Shown: positions 5,232 to 34,170 of the stretch, in pieces
Numbering within the stretch: position 1 is the stretch's first letter
Layout of the letters: the number at the start of each line of letters is the position of its first letter
DNA from: a virus
Virus record (IMG/VR): IMGVR_UViG_3300034019_000097
Span: 1 to 34,170 of that record
Strand: one strand, 5' to 3'
Length of the DNA: 34,170 nt
Translations under genes and position numbers: made by a program
The notes under the pieces: model-generated
The model's database searches: none
The model's input: only the letters and a program-made list of their open reading frames with translations
Told to the model about the DNA's origin: nothing

Positions 5232-5261
5232 ATTATAAACACAAAGCGATATCGGTGTACA
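5232..5261 (-). promoter_or_regulatory. Leftward promoter candidate with operator between -35 and -10
   Basis: On the minus strand a perfect TATAAT (5232-5237) is preceded, 18 bases upstream, by TGTACA (5256-5261), a 4/6 match to the sigma-70 -35 box. Transcription would start near 5225, giving a leader of about 36 bases before the 66-aa gene. The palindrome CGATATCG (5247-5254) sits between the two boxes, where a bound repressor would block polymerase. The -10 is strong evidence; the -35 is weaker. Confidence 0.6.
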
Positions 5262-6542: not shown

Positions 6543-6769
6543 AGCGGCCATGGAAGCCACACTACCCCAAACACACGGGCCCACTGCCCGAGCGCGCTGT
6601 GCTGGAGCGTGCGGCGGCCAGAGAGCTGCTGACAACGTGGGAGCTCACCAAGGACAAAGCCCTGGTGGACAGGCACCTGGCAGCAACCGAGAAGGTCTAC
6701 GGCAAGGGCGCAGAGCAGCGCATCAGGCAGCACATGCGAGAGGTGGCCAGGAATGAACGCTGTGGCTGA
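6539..6769 (+). CDS. Hypothetical 76-aa basic helical protein
   Basis: ATG 6539 overlaps the previous stop as ATGA. The N-terminus is basic and Pro-rich (MKRPWKPHYPKH); the rest is probably one or two long charged helices (ERAVLERAAARELLTTWEL, RQHMREVARNER). It overlaps the replication initiator gene by 17 bases. No family is recognised. The position directly before the initiator and the charge pattern would suit a DNA-associated accessory protein, but that is inference only. Confidence 0.7.
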   Translation: MKRPWKPHYPKHTGPLPERAVLERAAARELLTTWELTKDKALVDRHLAATEKVYGKGAEQRIRQHMREVARNERCG

Positions 6770-7709
6770 ACCGATTGCATTTGCGTTGCCCAAGCGGCCA
6801 CGCATCAAAGAGAAGGACGCACCGCCAGACCAGCGCAAGGTCTGCGTGCTGCCCATCAGAGCTGTGTTTGACAAGCGCATGAGTCACGGCGCGCTGCAAG
6901 CTCTGGCAGCTCTGTGCGCGTACTGCAACCGTGCCGGCATCACATGGGTCAGCCAGACCAGGCTGGCGCAAGAGCTCGGCATCAGCCAGCAAGCGGTGGC
7001 CAAGCAGTTCAAGCAGCTCAGAGAGCTGGGCTACCTGGAGACCGTTCGCAAAGGGTTCAAGGGCGAGCGCACCGACACCCTGCGCGTTGTGTTCGATCCC
7101 AGCATCACAGCAGAGGAAGCCATCACCATGACATCAAACAAGGAGGACACACGGCCACCGGCAATCATCCAGGAGCAGGCCAGACAGGCCGAGGAGATCG
7201 ACAGAGAGGGCCAAGCAAGGATCGCCAGGCTCATCAGCAAAGCACTCAAGCAACCACTGAAACAGGAGAAAACCATGCCCGCATCAGGACAGACTAGGAC
7301 GGTCAAGAAGATGAAGGAAGACATCCAAAAGGCAGCTGCCAAACGCTCACCAGGTACAACCAAACCTGTGGATAAGCATGTGGACAAGCATGCTCACATT
7401 CACAACCCACAGGTTGTAATTGAAGAGGGTCTACATTCACAACCTAATCACAACCTGGAGGTTGTAGATAACACAAGAGAACACATAAGAGAGAACATAT
7501 ATAAGGTTAATACTTTAAATACAATAAGAGATAACCGGTTAGTTCTGCACAACCAAACGATTAAGCAGCTGCTCGACTTCGGCATGACCGAGCAGGACAT
7601 CGAGGACGGCCTGACAACCCTGTTGGCGATCTACCGAGCCGAGGGTTTGACCCCGAAAGAGCCCCAGCTGGTTGAGGGACTGATGCAGATGCACAGGGAT
7701 GCTAGGTGA
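6753..7709 (+). CDS. Replication initiator-like protein (lambda O-type organisation)
   Basis: This encodes 318 residues. Residues about 42-115 form a winged helix-turn-helix: THGALQALAAL-type helix, then WVSQTRLAQELGISQQ with recognition helix AVAKQFKQLRELGYLE and a basic wing. A charged linker follows, and the C-terminal part (about 255-318) is helical. N-terminal winged-helix DNA binding plus a variable linker resembles phage O-like initiators. The segment encoding residues about 200-268 holds a DnaA box, repeated ACAACC sites and an A+T-rich stretch, so the gene probably contains the origin it acts on. No helicase or primase gene is found, so it would recruit host DnaB or another host loader. 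Confidence 0.7.
   Translation: MNAVAEPIAFALPKRPRIKEKDAPPDQRKVCVLPIRAVFDKRMSHGALQALAALCAYCNRAGITWVSQTRLAQELGISQQAVAKQFKQLRELGYLETVRKGFKGERTDTLRVVFDPSITAEEAITMTSNKEDTRPPAIIQEQARQAEEIDREGQARIARLISKALKQPLKQEKTMPASGQTRTVKKMKEDIQKAAAKRSPGTTKPVDKHVDKHAHIHNPQVVIEEGLHSQPNHNLEVVDNTREHIRENIYKVNTLNTIRDNRLVLHNQTIKQLLDFGMTEQDIEDGLTTLLAIYRAEGLTPKEPQLVEGLMQMHRDAR
7356..7554. other. Putative replication origin inside the initiator gene
   Basis: In about 200 bases there is a perfect DnaA-box sequence TGTGGATAA (7367-7375), a near-tandem 12-base repeat beginning there (TGTGGATAAGCA then TGTGGACAAGCA), and seven ACAACC/GGTTGT half-sites: 7356, 7402, 7412, 7439, 7450, 7460 and 7549. Two form inverted repeats (7402-7417 and 7450-7465), and ACATTCACAACC recurs at 7396 and 7433. 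An A+T-rich stretch (about 7466-7531) follows, then the palindrome TAACCGGTTA (7532-7541). Iterons next to an A+T-rich unwinding region inside an initiator gene match the lambda ori/O plan. Confidence 0.65.
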
Positions 7710-8065: not shown

Positions 8066-8317
8066 ATGGCATACGAACTGAAGCCTGGACAGGGCAAAGC
8101 ATTTGTGAACAAGACGAAGACCGAGGACTGGCACGCGCCGTACTCTGGTGAGGTGATCTTGCCTGATGGGTCGCTGCATTACTTGGAGATCACGCCTGGC
8201 AAGACGCAGGCTGGTGAGTGGTGGTTCCGGGTAAAGGTGGGTAAGCCTAAAGCTGCTAAGCCTGCTGAAGTGTCAGCGCCTGTGATGGCCACTGACGACA
8301 ACGACATACCGTTCTGA
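8066..8317 (+). CDS. Small protein with SSB-like acidic C-terminal tail
   Basis: This encodes 83 residues with AAAGGA upstream of ATG 8066. The body is compact and beta-rich (FVNKTKTEDWHAPYSGEV, SLHYLEITPG, GEWWFRVKVG) with a basic Lys/Pro linker. It ends in ATDDNDIPF, very close to the acidic DDDIPF tip that bacterial and phage SSB proteins use to recruit partners. It is shorter than a standard OB-fold SSB, and I cannot confirm an OB fold. It may be a minimal single-strand-binding protein or a decoy that docks on host SSB partners. It is first in the late operon and overlaps the TerS start by one base. Confidence 0.7.
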   Translation: MAYELKPGQGKAFVNKTKTEDWHAPYSGEVILPDGSLHYLEITPGKTQAGEWWFRVKVGKPKAAKPAEVSAPVMATDDNDIPF

Positions 8318-8751
8318 TGGCAAGCCGTAAGCAGCCTACGCAGATACCCAGTGTGGCTGGCTGGGGTGGCACCAGGTCGATTGAGCGCAGGCTTGAGAGA
8401 TCTGCCACCTTGGCGGGCAACCGGGAGGCGGTGGCGTATGCGCTCTTGTGCATGGCCAACACCAAGATCAGCGACATCATGACTTGGGATGAGGCTGGGA
8501 ATGTGACAGTTAAGGCTGCGCACCAGATACCCGAGCATGCGCTCACAGCCATTAAGTCAATTAAGCAGAAGGTTGACCGGGATGGCAACTCAACGCTTGA
8601 GATTGAGCTGTATGACAAGGTCGGGGTGCTGCGCATTCTGGCCAAGGCTTCTGGATTGCTGGACAACCCGGATGAATCTGACAAGCCTTCGGTGATCGGA
8701 ATCAATATCAAGTCACCGATCAATGACATTGTTGACGTAAAGGGAGATTGA
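8317..8751 (+). CDS. terS: Terminase small subunit-like protein
   Basis: This encodes 144 residues. The N-terminal half has basic helical segments (GTRSIERRLERSATLAG, NREAVAYALLCMAN), and the C-terminal half contains strands and a helix (STLEIELYDKVGVLRILAKA) and an acidic end. The position one small gene upstream of the large terminase, and recalled similarity to phage small terminases, support TerS, which recognises the packaging site and regulates TerL. There is no strong sequence motif, so the call leans on context. It overlaps the upstream stop as TGATG. Confidence 0.65.
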   Translation: MASRKQPTQIPSVAGWGGTRSIERRLERSATLAGNREAVAYALLCMANTKISDIMTWDEAGNVTVKAAHQIPEHALTAIKSIKQKVDRDGNSTLEIELYDKVGVLRILAKASGLLDNPDESDKPSVIGINIKSPINDIVDVKGD

Positions 8752-10448: not shown

Positions 10449-10933
10449 CAGACCTGATCGACACCGTCAACGAAAAGCTGGCTTGCACCGGCTGCTATTT
10501 TGAGCCGATCACCGATTGGCACATCGAGCGCCTGGCCAAATGGCATCAATCATTTGGGCCTGTCGATGTAAAAGACACAGTGCAGTTCAATATGGAATGC
10601 GGGCCCAGTGGCGCTCTGTATTACAACGGAAAACTGCTAGGAATCATTGGGGTGATCACGTTGCGGCCACATGTTGGTGAGGTGTGGACGATCATCGATG
10701 ACAGCGTCAAGCACAAGTTCAAGCGCCCGCTGGTTGTGGGTGTCAGAACTGCGCTCGATATCGCTCAGATATCACTCAGTTTGACCCGTGTACAAGTAGC
10801 AATAGAATCTGATGCAGATTATTCGCAGAGCTGGCCGCTGGCGCTGGGCTTCACGCTTGAGGGTGTGATGCGCTGCTTCGGATCGGACGGTTCTGATTAC
10901 TTACTGTATGGGAGAATCAAACCATGGGACTAG
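10445..10933 (+). CDS. T7 gp13-like protein with GNAT-type fold
   Basis: This 162-residue protein has an acetyltransferase-like order: an N-terminal helix (HIERLAKWHQSFGPVD), central strands (GALYYNGKLLGIIGVITL, VGEVWTIIDD), and a C-terminal GFTLEGVMRCFGSDGSDYLL resembling the final strands of GNAT enzymes. Small proteins of this type near structural genes are commonly annotated as T7 gp13-like internal or host-range proteins. Catalytic activity is not implied; I see no clear acetyl-CoA P-loop. It sits between TerL and an Ala-rich gene, overlapping both. Confidence 0.6.
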   Translation: MTDLIDTVNEKLACTGCYFEPITDWHIERLAKWHQSFGPVDVKDTVQFNMECGPSGALYYNGKLLGIIGVITLRPHVGEVWTIIDDSVKHKFKRPLVVGVRTALDIAQISLSLTRVQVAIESDADYSQSWPLALGFTLEGVMRCFGSDGSDYLLYGRIKPWD

Positions 10934-29389: not shown

Positions 29390-31327
29390 ATGTTTGCAGC
29401 ATCTAAAACAGCAGCAGTCTCTGGCGCAGGGCCAGATGCACAGTTTAATTACGTCACTATGCTCTTGCATGGCGATGGGACTAATGGCGCACAGAACAAT
29501 ACATTCCTAGATAGCAGTACAAACAATTTCACGATTACCCGCAATGGCAATACAACCCAAGGTTCTTTCTCGCCTTATGGGTCTAATTGGTCTAATTACT
29601 TTGATGGGTCTGGTGATTATTTAACAACATCGTCAAGTCAAATAATTCCGACTGGCTCATTTACTGTTGAATGTTTTGCTTTTGTAACTGGCTCTGGAAA
29701 CAATCAAAAGTTTGTGGCTCAAGGCACATCAGGTACAGCAGGGCGTTTTTCTTTAGGAATTGAAGGTGGTAATTGGTGGGTTCAAATTGGTAGCGATGCA
29801 ATTCAAACAGGCACACCAGTAAGGAATCAATGGAACTATGTTGCGGTTACATATAACGGCTCGACAATAACTTTGTATGTCAACGGCACTTCCATTGGAA
29901 CTGTATCTAGTTCGGCAAACGCACAAAACACAACTTTAACGATTGGGCAAGACTGGAACAGCTACATTACGACTGGCTACATTTCCAATGTGCGTGTGTC
30001 CAACACAGTTAGAACAGTAACGACAACACCGACTGCACCATTCACATCGGATGGAAACACAAGGCTACTTGCTTGCCAAGCAAACCGATTTTTGGACTCA
30101 TCAGCTAACGCATTTGCTTTAACAGTAAACGGCAACCCAAGCGTTCAACGTTTCAACCCATTTGGTACTTCTACCGCCTACTCCACAAGCGTGATTGGTG
30201 GGTCAGGGTACTTTGATGGTAGTGGAGATTATTTGGTTTCTCCTGCTTCTAGTTCATATCAGTTTGCAGGTGATTTCACAATTGAGTATTGGGCAAATTT
30301 TTCAGCCATTGATGGCGTTATGCCTATTGGTCAAACATACACAGGCAACAATTTCCAAATCTATTATTCCGCAGATGGAAGCATTGAATTTGGTGGTTTA
30401 AACCTTGGGCTGGTTTCTACATCTGCTGGTGTAATTGTTAAAAATAGTTGGCATCATGGTGCTTTGGTTAGAAGTGGCTCAACAGTTACGCTATACATCA
30501 ATGGTGTTTCTAGAGGCACAATTACTTCATCGTCAACAGTAGGAAACAACGCTGACATTGGTATTGGTGCTAGACCAAACAATGCTTACAACTGCACAGG
30601 CTACATTTCAAATGTGCGTTTAGTTTCATCTGCTGTTTACACAACAACTTTCACACCACCTACCACACCATTTACTGCAATTAGTGGAACAGTATTATTG
30701 CTATCCACAACCAACGCAGCAATCTTTGACAACGCCATGATGAACGACTTAGAAACTGTGGGTAACGCACAGATTTCTACAAGTGTTAAGAAGTATGGAA
30801 CAGGGTCTTTGGCATTTGATGGTACTGGTGATTATTTGGCTAGTAATTCTGCGGGTACAAATGTTTCTTATGCTTTTGGTACTGGAAATTTCACAATCGA
30901 ATTGTGGTTGTACTTAAATACAGTATCAGGTGGCCCATATTTTATTTATGATGGTAGGCCACTAACAACGCAAGGTGCATATCCATGCTTGTTTATGGAT
31001 AATGCAACACTTACATATCAAGTTAATTCGGGTGATTTGTTTTACGCAACTTTAGCCACAGGAACTTGGTATCACATTGCCGTTTGTAGAAGTGGGACAA
31101 CAAATAAACTTTTTGTTAATGGAACACAACAAGGTTCTGCAACAGATTCAACAAATTATTTAAGTGGTGGTGCAGGTCGGCCTGGAATTGGCGGTGGTGG
31201 CTATGCCACAAATGCCTATTTTCTTAATGGCTACATAGATGACCTACGCATTACCAAAGGCTTTGCCAGATACACCGCAAACTTCACACCGCCAACTGCG
31301 GCATTTTCAGATACAGGCCCATATTAA
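29390..31327 (+). CDS. Triple LamG/concanavalin-like adhesin (receptor-binding candidate)
   Basis: This encodes 645 residues. Three repeats of a jelly-roll domain are visible, marked by YFDGSGDYL (70-78), YFDGSGDYL (about 274-282) and AFDGTGDYL (about 475-483), each followed by a FTVE/FTIE strand, a W.H/Y..V strand, and a closing YISNVR or YIDDLR segment. This is the LamG-3/concanavalin A-like pattern used to bind glycans. A short N-terminal 20 residues may dock to the fibre. The gene is visibly more A+T-rich than its neighbours, hinting at recent acquisition. It is probably the host-range determinant; binding target unknown. Confidence 0.85.
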   Translation: MFAASKTAAVSGAGPDAQFNYVTMLLHGDGTNGAQNNTFLDSSTNNFTITRNGNTTQGSFSPYGSNWSNYFDGSGDYLTTSSSQIIPTGSFTVECFAFVTGSGNNQKFVAQGTSGTAGRFSLGIEGGNWWVQIGSDAIQTGTPVRNQWNYVAVTYNGSTITLYVNGTSIGTVSSSANAQNTTLTIGQDWNSYITTGYISNVRVSNTVRTVTTTPTAPFTSDGNTRLLACQANRFLDSSANAFALTVNGNPSVQRFNPFGTSTAYSTSVIGGSGYFDGSGDYLVSPASSSYQFAGDFTIEYWANFSAIDGVMPIGQTYTGNNFQIYYSADGSIEFGGLNLGLVSTSAGVIVKNSWHHGALVRSGSTVTLYINGVSRGTITSSSTVGNNADIGIGARPNNAYNCTGYISNVRLVSSAVYTTTFTPPTTPFTAISGTVLLLSTTNAAIFDNAMMNDLETVGNAQISTSVKKYGTGSLAFDGTGDYLASNSAGTNVSYAFGTGNFTIELWLYLNTVSGGPYFIYDGRPLTTQGAYPCLFMDNATLTYQVNSGDLFYATLATGTWYHIAVCRSGTTNKLFVNGTQQGSATDSTNYLSGGAGRPGIGGGGYATNAYFLNGYIDDLRITKGFARYTANFTPPTAAFSDTGPY

Positions 31328-31335
31328 GGAACATC

Positions 31336-31797
31336 ATGCAAATTGCAATCTTAACTAGCCCCATTACAGTTGGCGATTATCGTGAACTGTTTAGCAATAC
31401 ATCATTTAACTCAAGTGGCCCAAGTGATGAATTCTTAACTGCCAACAATGCCAAGAAGGTCAATGCCTTTAAAGCGCATGACAGTCTGACTCAGAAGTTG
31501 GTTTCATGCTCTGCCTATGACGATGGTGCATTTGTTTCTGTCGTTCAAGTGGCTGACATGAGTGCTGAAGAAATCCAAGCAGCCAAGGATTCTGCAATGT
31601 CTCAACTGAGAGCCACACGCAATGCTTTATTGCTTGCTTGTGATTGGACTCAGATTGCTGATTGCACCATTCCTAAGAAGACTGAGTGGGCAACATATCG
31701 CCAGACACTAAGAGACTTTCCATCGACTGTTTCCGATGCAAGAGTAAGTATTGATTGGCCACATAACCCTGATTGGGTTGAGCCTTCTGGTATTTAA
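31336..31797 (+). CDS. Tail assembly chaperone-like protein
   Basis: This encodes 153 residues. The C-terminal half reads LRATRNALLLACDWTQIADC, followed by WATYRQTLRDFPS and SIDWPHNPDW, the pattern of phage tail-assembly chaperone proteins often encoded directly after fibres (family recalled as Phage_tail_APC). The N-terminal half is variable. Such proteins help fold or attach fibres. The start follows AGGAA 5 bases upstream. It lies right after the adhesin, so it may serve that protein. Confidence 0.8.
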   Translation: MQIAILTSPITVGDYRELFSNTSFNSSGPSDEFLTANNAKKVNAFKAHDSLTQKLVSCSAYDDGAFVSVVQVADMSAEEIQAAKDSAMSQLRATRNALLLACDWTQIADCTIPKKTEWATYRQTLRDFPSTVSDARVSIDWPHNPDWVEPSGI

Positions 31798-31832
31798 AAT
31801 GTACAAAATCCATAACTTACTATTGGGTAATC

Positions 31833-32030
31833 ATGGACTCTGATGTTGATAAAAGGCTTGCCGTGCATGAAGCTATTTGTGCCGAGCGATACAGCGCCAT
31901 TGCTTCATCTTTAAAGGATGGGGATAAACGCATGACAAAGATTGAGTACTTGCTTTATGCGGTGATGCTTGCTGTGCTGCTTGGCCCAGGGGTGGCTGCC
32001 GAATTCGTTAAGAAGATTTTCGGGCTATGA
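31833..32030 (+). CDS. Small XhlA-like protein with C-terminal membrane anchor
   Basis: This encodes 65 residues: a soluble N-terminus with DKRLAVHEAICAERYSAIA and a C-terminal hydrophobic span (about 40-58, EYLLYAVMLAVLLGPGVAA) followed by a KK-containing end. The layout resembles small XhlA-type holin-associated proteins. A weak ribosome-binding site precedes ATG 31833. TGATG-like overlap leads into the next membrane microprotein. It may take part in lysis control or be a simple membrane accessory; the sequence does not decide. Confidence 0.65.
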   Translation: MDSDVDKRLAVHEAICAERYSAIASSLKDGDKRMTKIEYLLYAVMLAVLLGPGVAAEFVKKIFGL

Positions 32031-32887: not shown

Positions 32888-33075
32888 GATATTTATTGCT
32901 TCTTTTACTGCTAACTGGCTGCGAAGATCGTTATCGATACAAGTGCCAGAATCCTGACCATTTCCATGCCCCAGAGTGTCAGAAGCCAAAGTGTCTATTC
33001 ACTCAGCAATGTCCAGAGTACCTGGTCGCACCCATACTGGAGAAAAAAGTTGATGAAGTTAAACCTAACAACTGA
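32884..33075 (+). CDS. Small cysteine-rich lipoprotein
   Basis: This encodes 63 residues. The N-terminus MRYLLLLLLLTGC is a signal peptide with lipobox LTGC (Cys13). The mature part is only 51 residues with four more Cys (YKCQNP, PECQKPKC, QQCPEY), which suggests disulfides in the periplasm. It overlaps the holin-like gene by 23 bases. It is distinct from the nested Rz1 lipoprotein. It may be an envelope or superinfection-exclusion factor, or part of lysis; the role is unknown. The left terminal repeat carries only its 3' end. Confidence 0.75.
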   Translation: MRYLLLLLLLTGCEDRYRYKCQNPDHFHAPECQKPKCLFTQQCPEYLVAPILEKKVDEVKPNN

Positions 33076-33565
33076 AGAGATCGAGGTCAGGGTTTGGGGC
33101 TTTGTGGTCATTGCGGTGACTTGCATTCTCTGCTTCATTGTGGTCGCGCTTTTGTACTCAGTGACCTTTGTGACTCAGCCCATAAAATCCATGGCCCCAA
33201 TAGATCAGGCTTATACAAAGATGCTGAACGACATTGTGCTTTTGATTGTTGGCGGAATTGGCGCGGTGATGGGCAAGAAGGCTGTGGGGACTGCCGCCAA
33301 GGCTTTTGGTGGCCAGCAATCCATGCAGCCCATGTGCCAGCCCATGCAAGGCTATGGCCAGCAGTATGGGTACAGCAACAATCACGGGTTTAATGCCACA
33401 ACCAACGGCATCCCAAGCCAGCCATTTGGCGCCATGCCCACTTGGACCAACCCACAACTAGACGAGTCTTGGACACCTGGTCCACCACCAGACACGCCAC
33501 CGGACCATCTTGAGGATGACCATGAGCGCGAACAGCTGGCGCAGGCCAGAGAAGAGGCAGAGTAA
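33053..33565 (+). CDS. Holin-like membrane protein (right copy)
   Basis: This encodes 170 residues. ATG 33053 lies 10 bases after GGAG (33039-33042) and overlaps the lipoprotein gene. Two membrane segments are at about residues 15-38 and 59-74, identical in sequence to the left copy; the many DNA changes there are silent. The Gly/Gln/Pro-rich tail differs by several residues and has one extra Gln. Preserved membrane parts and a drifting tail are what purifying selection on a membrane-active protein would give. The stop overlaps the Rz start by one base. Confidence 0.6.
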   Translation: MKLNLTTEEIEVRVWGFVVIAVTCILCFIVVALLYSVTFVTQPIKSMAPIDQAYTKMLNDIVLLIVGGIGAVMGKKAVGTAAKAFGGQQSMQPMCQPMQGYGQQYGYSNNHGFNATTNGIPSQPFGAMPTWTNPQLDESWTPGPPPDTPPDHLEDDHEREQLAQAREEAE

Positions 33566-34041
33566 TGTTACCAATACCCTTACCCTGGCTCATTGTTGGT
33601 GTCTTGGTCTCATTATTTGGCACATACCGAGTGGGCCACCACTACGGGTGGCTGGAGCGCGACAATGACATGAAGATTGCCATTGCCCAAAAGAATGATG
33701 AAGCCAGAGCCAAGGAGAAAGAGCTTGGCGAGAAACTGCAAGATCAGGAAACGAAACTCAGAAAGGCCCAAGATGATGTCAAGAAAAAGCAGTCTGCTAT
33801 GCATGAGCTTGCTAGGACTGGTCGGCTGCGCCTCCCAGCCCCAAGTTGTCCACAAGTCAATGCAAGTGCCACCATTGCCACTGGAAATACACAACCCAGC
33901 CAGCCCGATGAAAGCGAACTTGAGCGACAGACTATTGCAACTCTTATCGACCTCGCAGCCGAAGGAGACAAAGCCATCACCAAGCTCAACGCCTGCGTCA
34001 GCGCCTACGAAGAAGTAAGGAGAATTGTCAATGGTCAATAG
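33565..34041 (+). CDS. Rz: Rz-like i-spanin (right copy)
   Basis: This encodes 158 residues, the same length as the left copy. The N-terminal anchor is unchanged. Most amino-acid differences fall in the coiled coil at about residues 46-58, where KAKEAELGTKLID-like sequence becomes EKELGEKLQDQ. From about residue 70 on, where the Rz1 frame is nested, only three residues differ. Confidence 0.85.
   Translation: MLPIPLPWLIVGVLVSLFGTYRVGHHYGWLERDNDMKIAIAQKNDEARAKEKELGEKLQDQETKLRKAQDDVKKKQSAMHELARTGRLRLPAPSCPQVNASATIATGNTQPSQPDESELERQTIATLIDLAAEGDKAITKLNACVSAYEEVRRIVNGQ
33773..34018 (+). CDS. Rz1: Rz1-like o-spanin nested inside Rz (right copy)
   Basis: This encodes 81 residues, starting at ATG 33773 (or 33776) with AAAGG 6 bases upstream, in a different frame within Rz. 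The lipobox is LVGC. Compared with the left copy, four residues differ (N to S, A to V, V to M, L to S) and no stop has appeared, which supports selection on this frame. Confidence 0.82.
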   Translation: MMSRKSSLLCMSLLGLVGCASQPQVVHKSMQVPPLPLEIHNPASPMKANLSDRLLQLLSTSQPKETKPSPSSTPASAPTKK

Positions 34042-34170
34042 TCAGCAGCTCCAGCAACTGCACATTGGCCCCGAGTGGGTCGATGCGCTTAACGAGACTT
34101 TCCAGCGCTTTGACATTTCAACGCCACTGCGCCAGGCTGCCTTTATTGGCCAGTGTGGCCATGAGTGTGG
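34031..34170 (+). CDS. Endolysin, 5' fragment (cut by window end)
   Basis: These are the first 46 codons plus two bases of the GH19-type endolysin, matching the complete gene at 1063-1659 in protein sequence over this stretch, including GQCGHE. The window ends inside the gene, so it is truncated by the sequence boundary and not by mutation. AAGGAG lies 8 bases before ATG 34031. Confidence 0.85.
   Translation, partial: MVNSQQLQQLHIGPEWVDALNETFQRFDISTPLRQAAFIGQCGHEC

Follow-up and report, generated by a model that had tools for sequence, protein, structure and literature searches.

A candidate replication origin within the initiator gene of a podovirus-like phage, and covariation of its repeats with the initiator recognition helix

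The initiator gene and its genomic setting

The window analysed here is the entire 34,170-base virus record IMGVR_UViG_3300034019_000097, the first 1.2 kb of which recurs at the end with 92 % identity. The match between 1–1202 and 32966–34170 is inexact, and the contig seems to be wrapped around a genome of ~33 kb with two strain variants. Because the ends repeat at 92 % identity, the record is probably a complete genome of this size assembled out of two variants. The window codes for tail, head and terminase proteins, a RusA resolvase, a RecT-like annealing protein and a YqaJ-type exonuclease. PHROG searches of the larger ORFs found no polymerase, helicase or primase, and Rfam and tRNA scans were empty. 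In the Pfam and PHROG searches the sole protein to match replication initiators was the product of the ORF at 6753–7709, which contains the following features.

6753–7709, + strand: initiator gene, 318 aa (PF13730 HTH_36, E 2.1e-7; PHROG 345/678/391, 'replication initiation O-like')
6843–7127, + strand: winged-helix DNA-binding domain, aa 31–125 (AlphaFold pLDDT about 84–94 over aa 31–100, then 75 and 87)
6987–7028, + strand: predicted recognition helix, aa 79–92 (AlphaFold helix 79–92; residues 79 and 84 covary with repeat class)
6987–6989 and 7002–7004, + strand: codons of Q79 and K84 in the recognition helix
7344–7529, + strand: predicted disordered linker, aa 198–259 (pLDDT <50), whose codons hold most of the candidate origin
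7356–7361, + strand: lone ACAACC half-site preceding the DnaA boxes (some relatives do not keep its position)
7367–7375, − strand: perfect DnaA box, TGTGGATAA as read on the + strand and TTATCCACA on the − strand
7379–7387, − strand: DnaA-box-like 9-mer with one mismatch (TTGTCCACA)
7402–7417, no strand: palindrome 1, ACAACC-CACA-GGTTGT
7439–7444, + strand: lone half-site in the interval separating palindromes 1 and 2, inside ACATTCACAACC (ACATTCACAACC also at 7396–7407)
7450–7465, no strand: palindrome 2, ACAACC-TGGA-GGTTGT
7466–7548, no strand: AT-rich segment (30 % GC), the presumed unwinding element
7549–7554, + strand: distal half-site past the AT-rich segment (same class as the others in most relatives)
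7551–7706, + strand: C-terminal three-helix domain, aa 267–318 (helices 267–275, 280–296 and 303–317, pLDDT about 91)

The match to phrog_345 had an E value of 1.3e-8, and the support from phrog_345, phrog_678 and phrog_391 was confined to the N-terminal region. A Pfam scan of the protein returned HTH_36 and other HTH families, with RepA_N (PF06970) absent. The fold matched RepA initiator structures at marginal E values. The nearest solved folds were the initiator N-terminal domains 4pql and 4pt7 (best E 1.4e-3), with 5kbj, a Rep–DNA complex, slightly lower; all three were marginal and intermixed with transcription regulators. 4PT7 is the RepA of a Staphylococcus aureus plasmid (PMC7145576). 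By analogy, the C-terminal domain is presumed to recruit host replication proteins.

Half-sites start at 7356, 7402, 7439, 7450 and 7549 on the + strand and at 7412 and 7460 on the − strand. These seven in 199 bases compare with 0.11 expected from dinucleotide shuffles (19.28 per 34,170 bases), in agreement with the count of seven against about 0.1 given in the initial annotation. The perfect DnaA box, the two inverted repeats and the A+T-rich segment which it had reported were likewise present, all within the HTH_36 and PHROG O-like ORF that it had called a winged-helix initiator gene. The inverted repeats are the only exact ACAACC-N4-GGTTGT palindromes in the window (16 bp each, 48 bp apart), and no 80-base stretch of the window is lower in GC than those beginning at 7462 and 7465. 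A tandem 12-base repeat, TGTGGATAAGCA/TGTGGACAAGCA at 7367–7390, is also there, but its best interpretation is a pair of DnaA-box-like 9-mers of which the second has a single mismatch. The proposal of a lambda-ori-like origin with a different iteron held for the in-gene layout but not for the unit. The sites are built from a 7-base half-site (CACAACC) that forms two palindromes and also stands singly, and they do not make up a simple direct-repeat iteron.

The cumulative GC skew reaches its minimum at ~5–5.5 kb, near the candidate origin, but is confounded by gene direction and was set aside as evidence on that account. Elsewhere in the window, the motif TTGTACA/TGTACAA was found at 5256, 7822, 7851, 8035, 15404 and 31800 (and at 10789 and 20110), mostly in intergenic DNA, with three of the copies lying downstream of the initiator gene; it is possibly a phage regulatory site. 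One-mismatch DnaA-box-like 9-mers were clustered at 30701–31927 in an AT-rich tail-gene region, which is probably a compositional effect.

Repeat classes and the recognition helix in relatives

Protein searches of viral contigs identified 239 genes including that of the window, 114 of them distinct. Most relatives carry a comparable set at the corresponding place in the gene: a pair of palindromes (in many cases 48 bp apart), isolated half-sites and an AT-rich segment, often joined by a distal half-site. Averaged over the family, GC content is 33 % in the AT-rich segment and 58 % in the gene's upstream portion. Some relatives lack ACAACC and have GGACAC, GCAACC or GATAAC instead, in a similar layout. 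The aligned half-sites are CACAACC, GGACAC(T/C), GGCAACC and GATAAC(C/A); the first three have a CAT upstream in common. The distal half-site belongs to the class of the gene in 21 of 23 ACAACC genes and eight of nine GCAACC genes, and clearly so in only four of 11 GGACAC genes. Within the ACAACC class, palindrome 2 and the distal half-site are frequently 71, 83, 95, 107 or 119 bases apart, distances that grow in 12-base steps. Two relatives have an extra ACAACC palindrome (L067:1530–1545 and L077:1181–1196) located 2.1–2.5 kb upstream of the sites in the initiator gene, and one (L081) has just one exact half-site.

Residues 79 and 84 predicted which repeat the gene contains for every one of the 110 classifiable genes among the 114, with Q79/K84 accompanying ACAACC (60 genes), R79/N84 accompanying GGACAC (23 genes), R79 with K or R at 84 accompanying GCAACC (25 genes) and Q79/R84 accompanying GATAAC (two genes). 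The other four genes could not be classified, and none of the classified genes disagreed. Winged-helix columns 45, 83, 87 and 108 likewise track the repeat class, so that residues 79 and 84 are not isolated as the determinants and the deciding residues are inferred. An A-type site for Gln and a G-type site for Arg are in line with common protein–DNA contacts. The pattern supports the view that the recognition helix reads the half-site, residue 79 corresponding to the first two bases (A-type or G-type) and residue 84 to the next two. The suggestion that the initiator reads the ACAACC units is thus supported by an exceptionless covariation between repeat and helix.

Two of the relatives (L231 and L232) have R79/N84 with serine at position 83 (helix SRQAISNQ) and no known repeat class. 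A recurring CATTGGTCAGCCTAC stretch may represent a further origin type. In L109 (R79/K84), a GCAACC palindrome and an ACAACC palindrome occur together at gene positions 541–700, perhaps marking a transitional origin.

The repeat class changed six times on a winged-helix tree from which the recognition helix had been left out, compared with 18 times on a tree of residues 126–195, the stretch physically separating the helix from the sites, and 19–20 times on trees of other gene parts; shuffled labels need about 43 changes. Simple hitch-hiking of the sites with the gene was rejected, since the intervening segment is less well linked to the class than is the winged helix (18 changes against six). 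The segment of residues 126–195 is short and its tree less resolved, which inflates its count, and single pairs were therefore inspected. L044 and L056 share the same N-terminus and 96 % identical DNA between helix and sites, with both the winged helix and the repeats exchanged. L136 and L161 are 87 % identical over the winged-helix DNA, with the differences concentrated in the recognition helix, and their sites differ (SRQAITNQ with GGACAC vs TQQAISKH with ACAACC). Among independent pairs on the tree of the intervening segment, six of six supported pairs agreed (P=0.03).

The family was also approached from the DNA side by searching for paired palindromes across 2.9 million viral contigs. This gave 83 and 10 hits, 92 of 93 in such initiator genes: 86 fell within ORFs clearly matching the family, and six were cut by a contig end and showed the linker or C-terminal part of such a protein. 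The lone hit outside the family (L329) was a tandem array of another kind. Because many hits were relatives already found, the scan gauges specificity more than discovery. It also yielded two remote groups (L274/L308 and L297; E 1e-12 to 1e-19) that have another C-terminal domain and again a Q..K helix (SQQAVHKH and SQQSVSKH).

A scan of 84,980 prokaryote genomes returned one distant homologue only, L241, on a Chloroflexi MAG contig. Annotated phages yielded one distant homologue (MEP301) by protein search and none by DNA search, an L142-type query gave three more, weaker matches, and the protein of the remote relative L274 matched none. In both MEP301 (L335:113–718) and L241 (603–1250), the linker is short or missing. 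The MEP301 homologue has no visible repeats in the gene or just after it, and GCCCCACAATT-like repeats are found close to the gene end in L241.

Selection on the sites and their probable function

Codon-preserving shuffles of 44 representative genes were used to separate DNA signal from protein coding. Half-sites numbered 244 versus 73 in the shuffles and palindromes 70 versus 4.1, with 40 of 44 genes listed at P<0.05 for half-sites. For the window gene alone, the probabilities were P=0.0002 for half-sites, P=0.013 for palindromes and P=0.09 for the perfect DnaA box. A purely coding origin of the repeats, as a by-product of linker amino acids with no role in the DNA, could draw on the fact that the linker is coded there, that its residues are common to related sequences and that the shuffles alone keep 73 of the 244 half-sites. 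This is highly improbable given the 3-fold excess of half-sites and 17-fold excess of palindromes, the occurrence of half-sites in all three reading frames and the predicted disorder of the linker. The sequence evidence supports selection on the sites themselves and also conservation of their layout. Joined with the covariation, it lends strong support to the view that the DNA sites are selected and that the initiator is the protein that reads them.

Perfect DnaA boxes were also in excess across the 44 representatives (22 versus 1.8 expected), in reverse orientation too. A box or a one-base variant occurred in 30 of the 44. The help from host DnaA that had been proposed is therefore plausible in many members but likely not universal, because 14 of the 44 have neither.

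The segment at 7356–7554 is interpreted as the replication origin of a podovirus-like phage of ~33 kb, lying in the gene of its own initiator, with a probability of about 0.88. Initiator dimers would bind the two palindromes and the single half-sites through the winged helix, the dimer and any higher-order assembly being proposed by analogy, and host DnaA may join at the boxes at 7367–7387. The complex would then, as in comparable systems, melt the AT-rich segment at 7466–7548, and the C-terminal domain would bring in the host helicase machinery. The segment is best read as a theta-type origin within the initiator gene, comparable to lambda O and to RepA_N plasmids, that is accompanied by DnaA boxes in many of the relatives. 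Its purpose as an origin is well supported by context but unproven.

The covariation indicates binding by this winged-helix protein and not what the binding is for. The sites could accordingly be operators for a transcriptional regulator that binds in its own gene and controls itself or its neighbours, a notion consistent with the resemblance of the winged helix to MarR/GntR-type regulators and with the additional upstream palindrome in two relatives. It is nevertheless unlikely, as DnaA boxes and an extreme AT-rich segment adjoin the sites over much of the family, no promoter-like site was found near them, the PHROG and fold matches include initiators and the searches brought up no other initiator candidate. 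A packaging (pac) site read by a small terminase would suit the position next to a Terminase_2-like ORF (8317–8751, below Pfam's cut-off), the likely terminase gene 0.6 kb downstream, but has very little probability, as the initiator's recognition helix goes with the type of repeat in every one of the 110 classifiable genes.

With the origin reading preferred, the family may hold a natural recognition code of at least four types, largely set by residues 79 (Gln/Arg) and 84 (Lys/Arg or Asn), in which phages would change type time and again through joint replacement of the helix and the matching sites, possibly escaping competition with related phages or satellites sharing an origin. This generalisation is tentative, and we put it at somewhat under even odds. 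The covariation over more than 100 relatives, drawn from sequence comparison, points to the DNA site that each protein reads. What began as a conjecture on a single site becomes a testable helix-to-origin rule for more than 100 phages without a close cultured relative, and the rule lets the origins of uncultivated viruses be predicted from protein sequence. The pairs L136/L161 and L044/L056 are natural matched material for studying how origin specificity changes without loss of function, a long-standing issue with lambdoid phages and in plasmid incompatibility.

Comparison with known replicons

The in-gene origin architecture is already known, and a limited literature search found no description of the phage family or of the residue-to-site correspondence. 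Iteron plasmids combine initiator sites, DnaA boxes and an AT-rich segment, with arrays usually outside the initiator gene. The window has the same three elements, but within the gene and with an initiator of another family.

Lambda O consists of an N-terminal DNA-binding domain, a linker and a C-terminal partner domain, with inverted-repeat sites and an AT-rich region in its gene (PMC6022878, PMC7466680). The window initiator shares this plan and has O-like PHROG matches. However, it has two short palindromes plus single half-sites and not the four tandem 18–19-bp iterons of ori-lambda; a half-site past the AT-rich segment is a further difference, as are DnaA boxes at the site array in many members. 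Unlike lambda, the window also has no recognised P-like gene: no helicase loader of this kind was found among the PHROG-annotated ORFs, several other ORFs having no annotation.

The Rep protein of pSK41 (319 aa) has a winged-helix N-terminal domain that binds boxes in the middle of its gene and a separate C-terminal domain, and the residues coded by the box region are dispensable for replication (PMC5703833). RepA_N plasmid initiators of this type, which are among the best fold matches, resemble the window initiator in their winged-helix N-terminus, central in-gene sites and separate C-terminal domain. They differ in that the window family is HTH_36 with another C-terminal domain, and pSK41 has four Rep boxes. 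In the hybrid initiators of pPR9 and pUSA03, an HTH_36 (PF13730) N-terminal domain and the origin have been exchanged together while the C-terminal domain stayed constant (PMC5703833). This joint exchange of HTH_36 domain and origin is the one also seen in the phage family. The plasmids represent one documented exchange type, whereas in the phages the class changes about 18 times when traced on protein parts that do not bind DNA, with covariation at the level of single residues.
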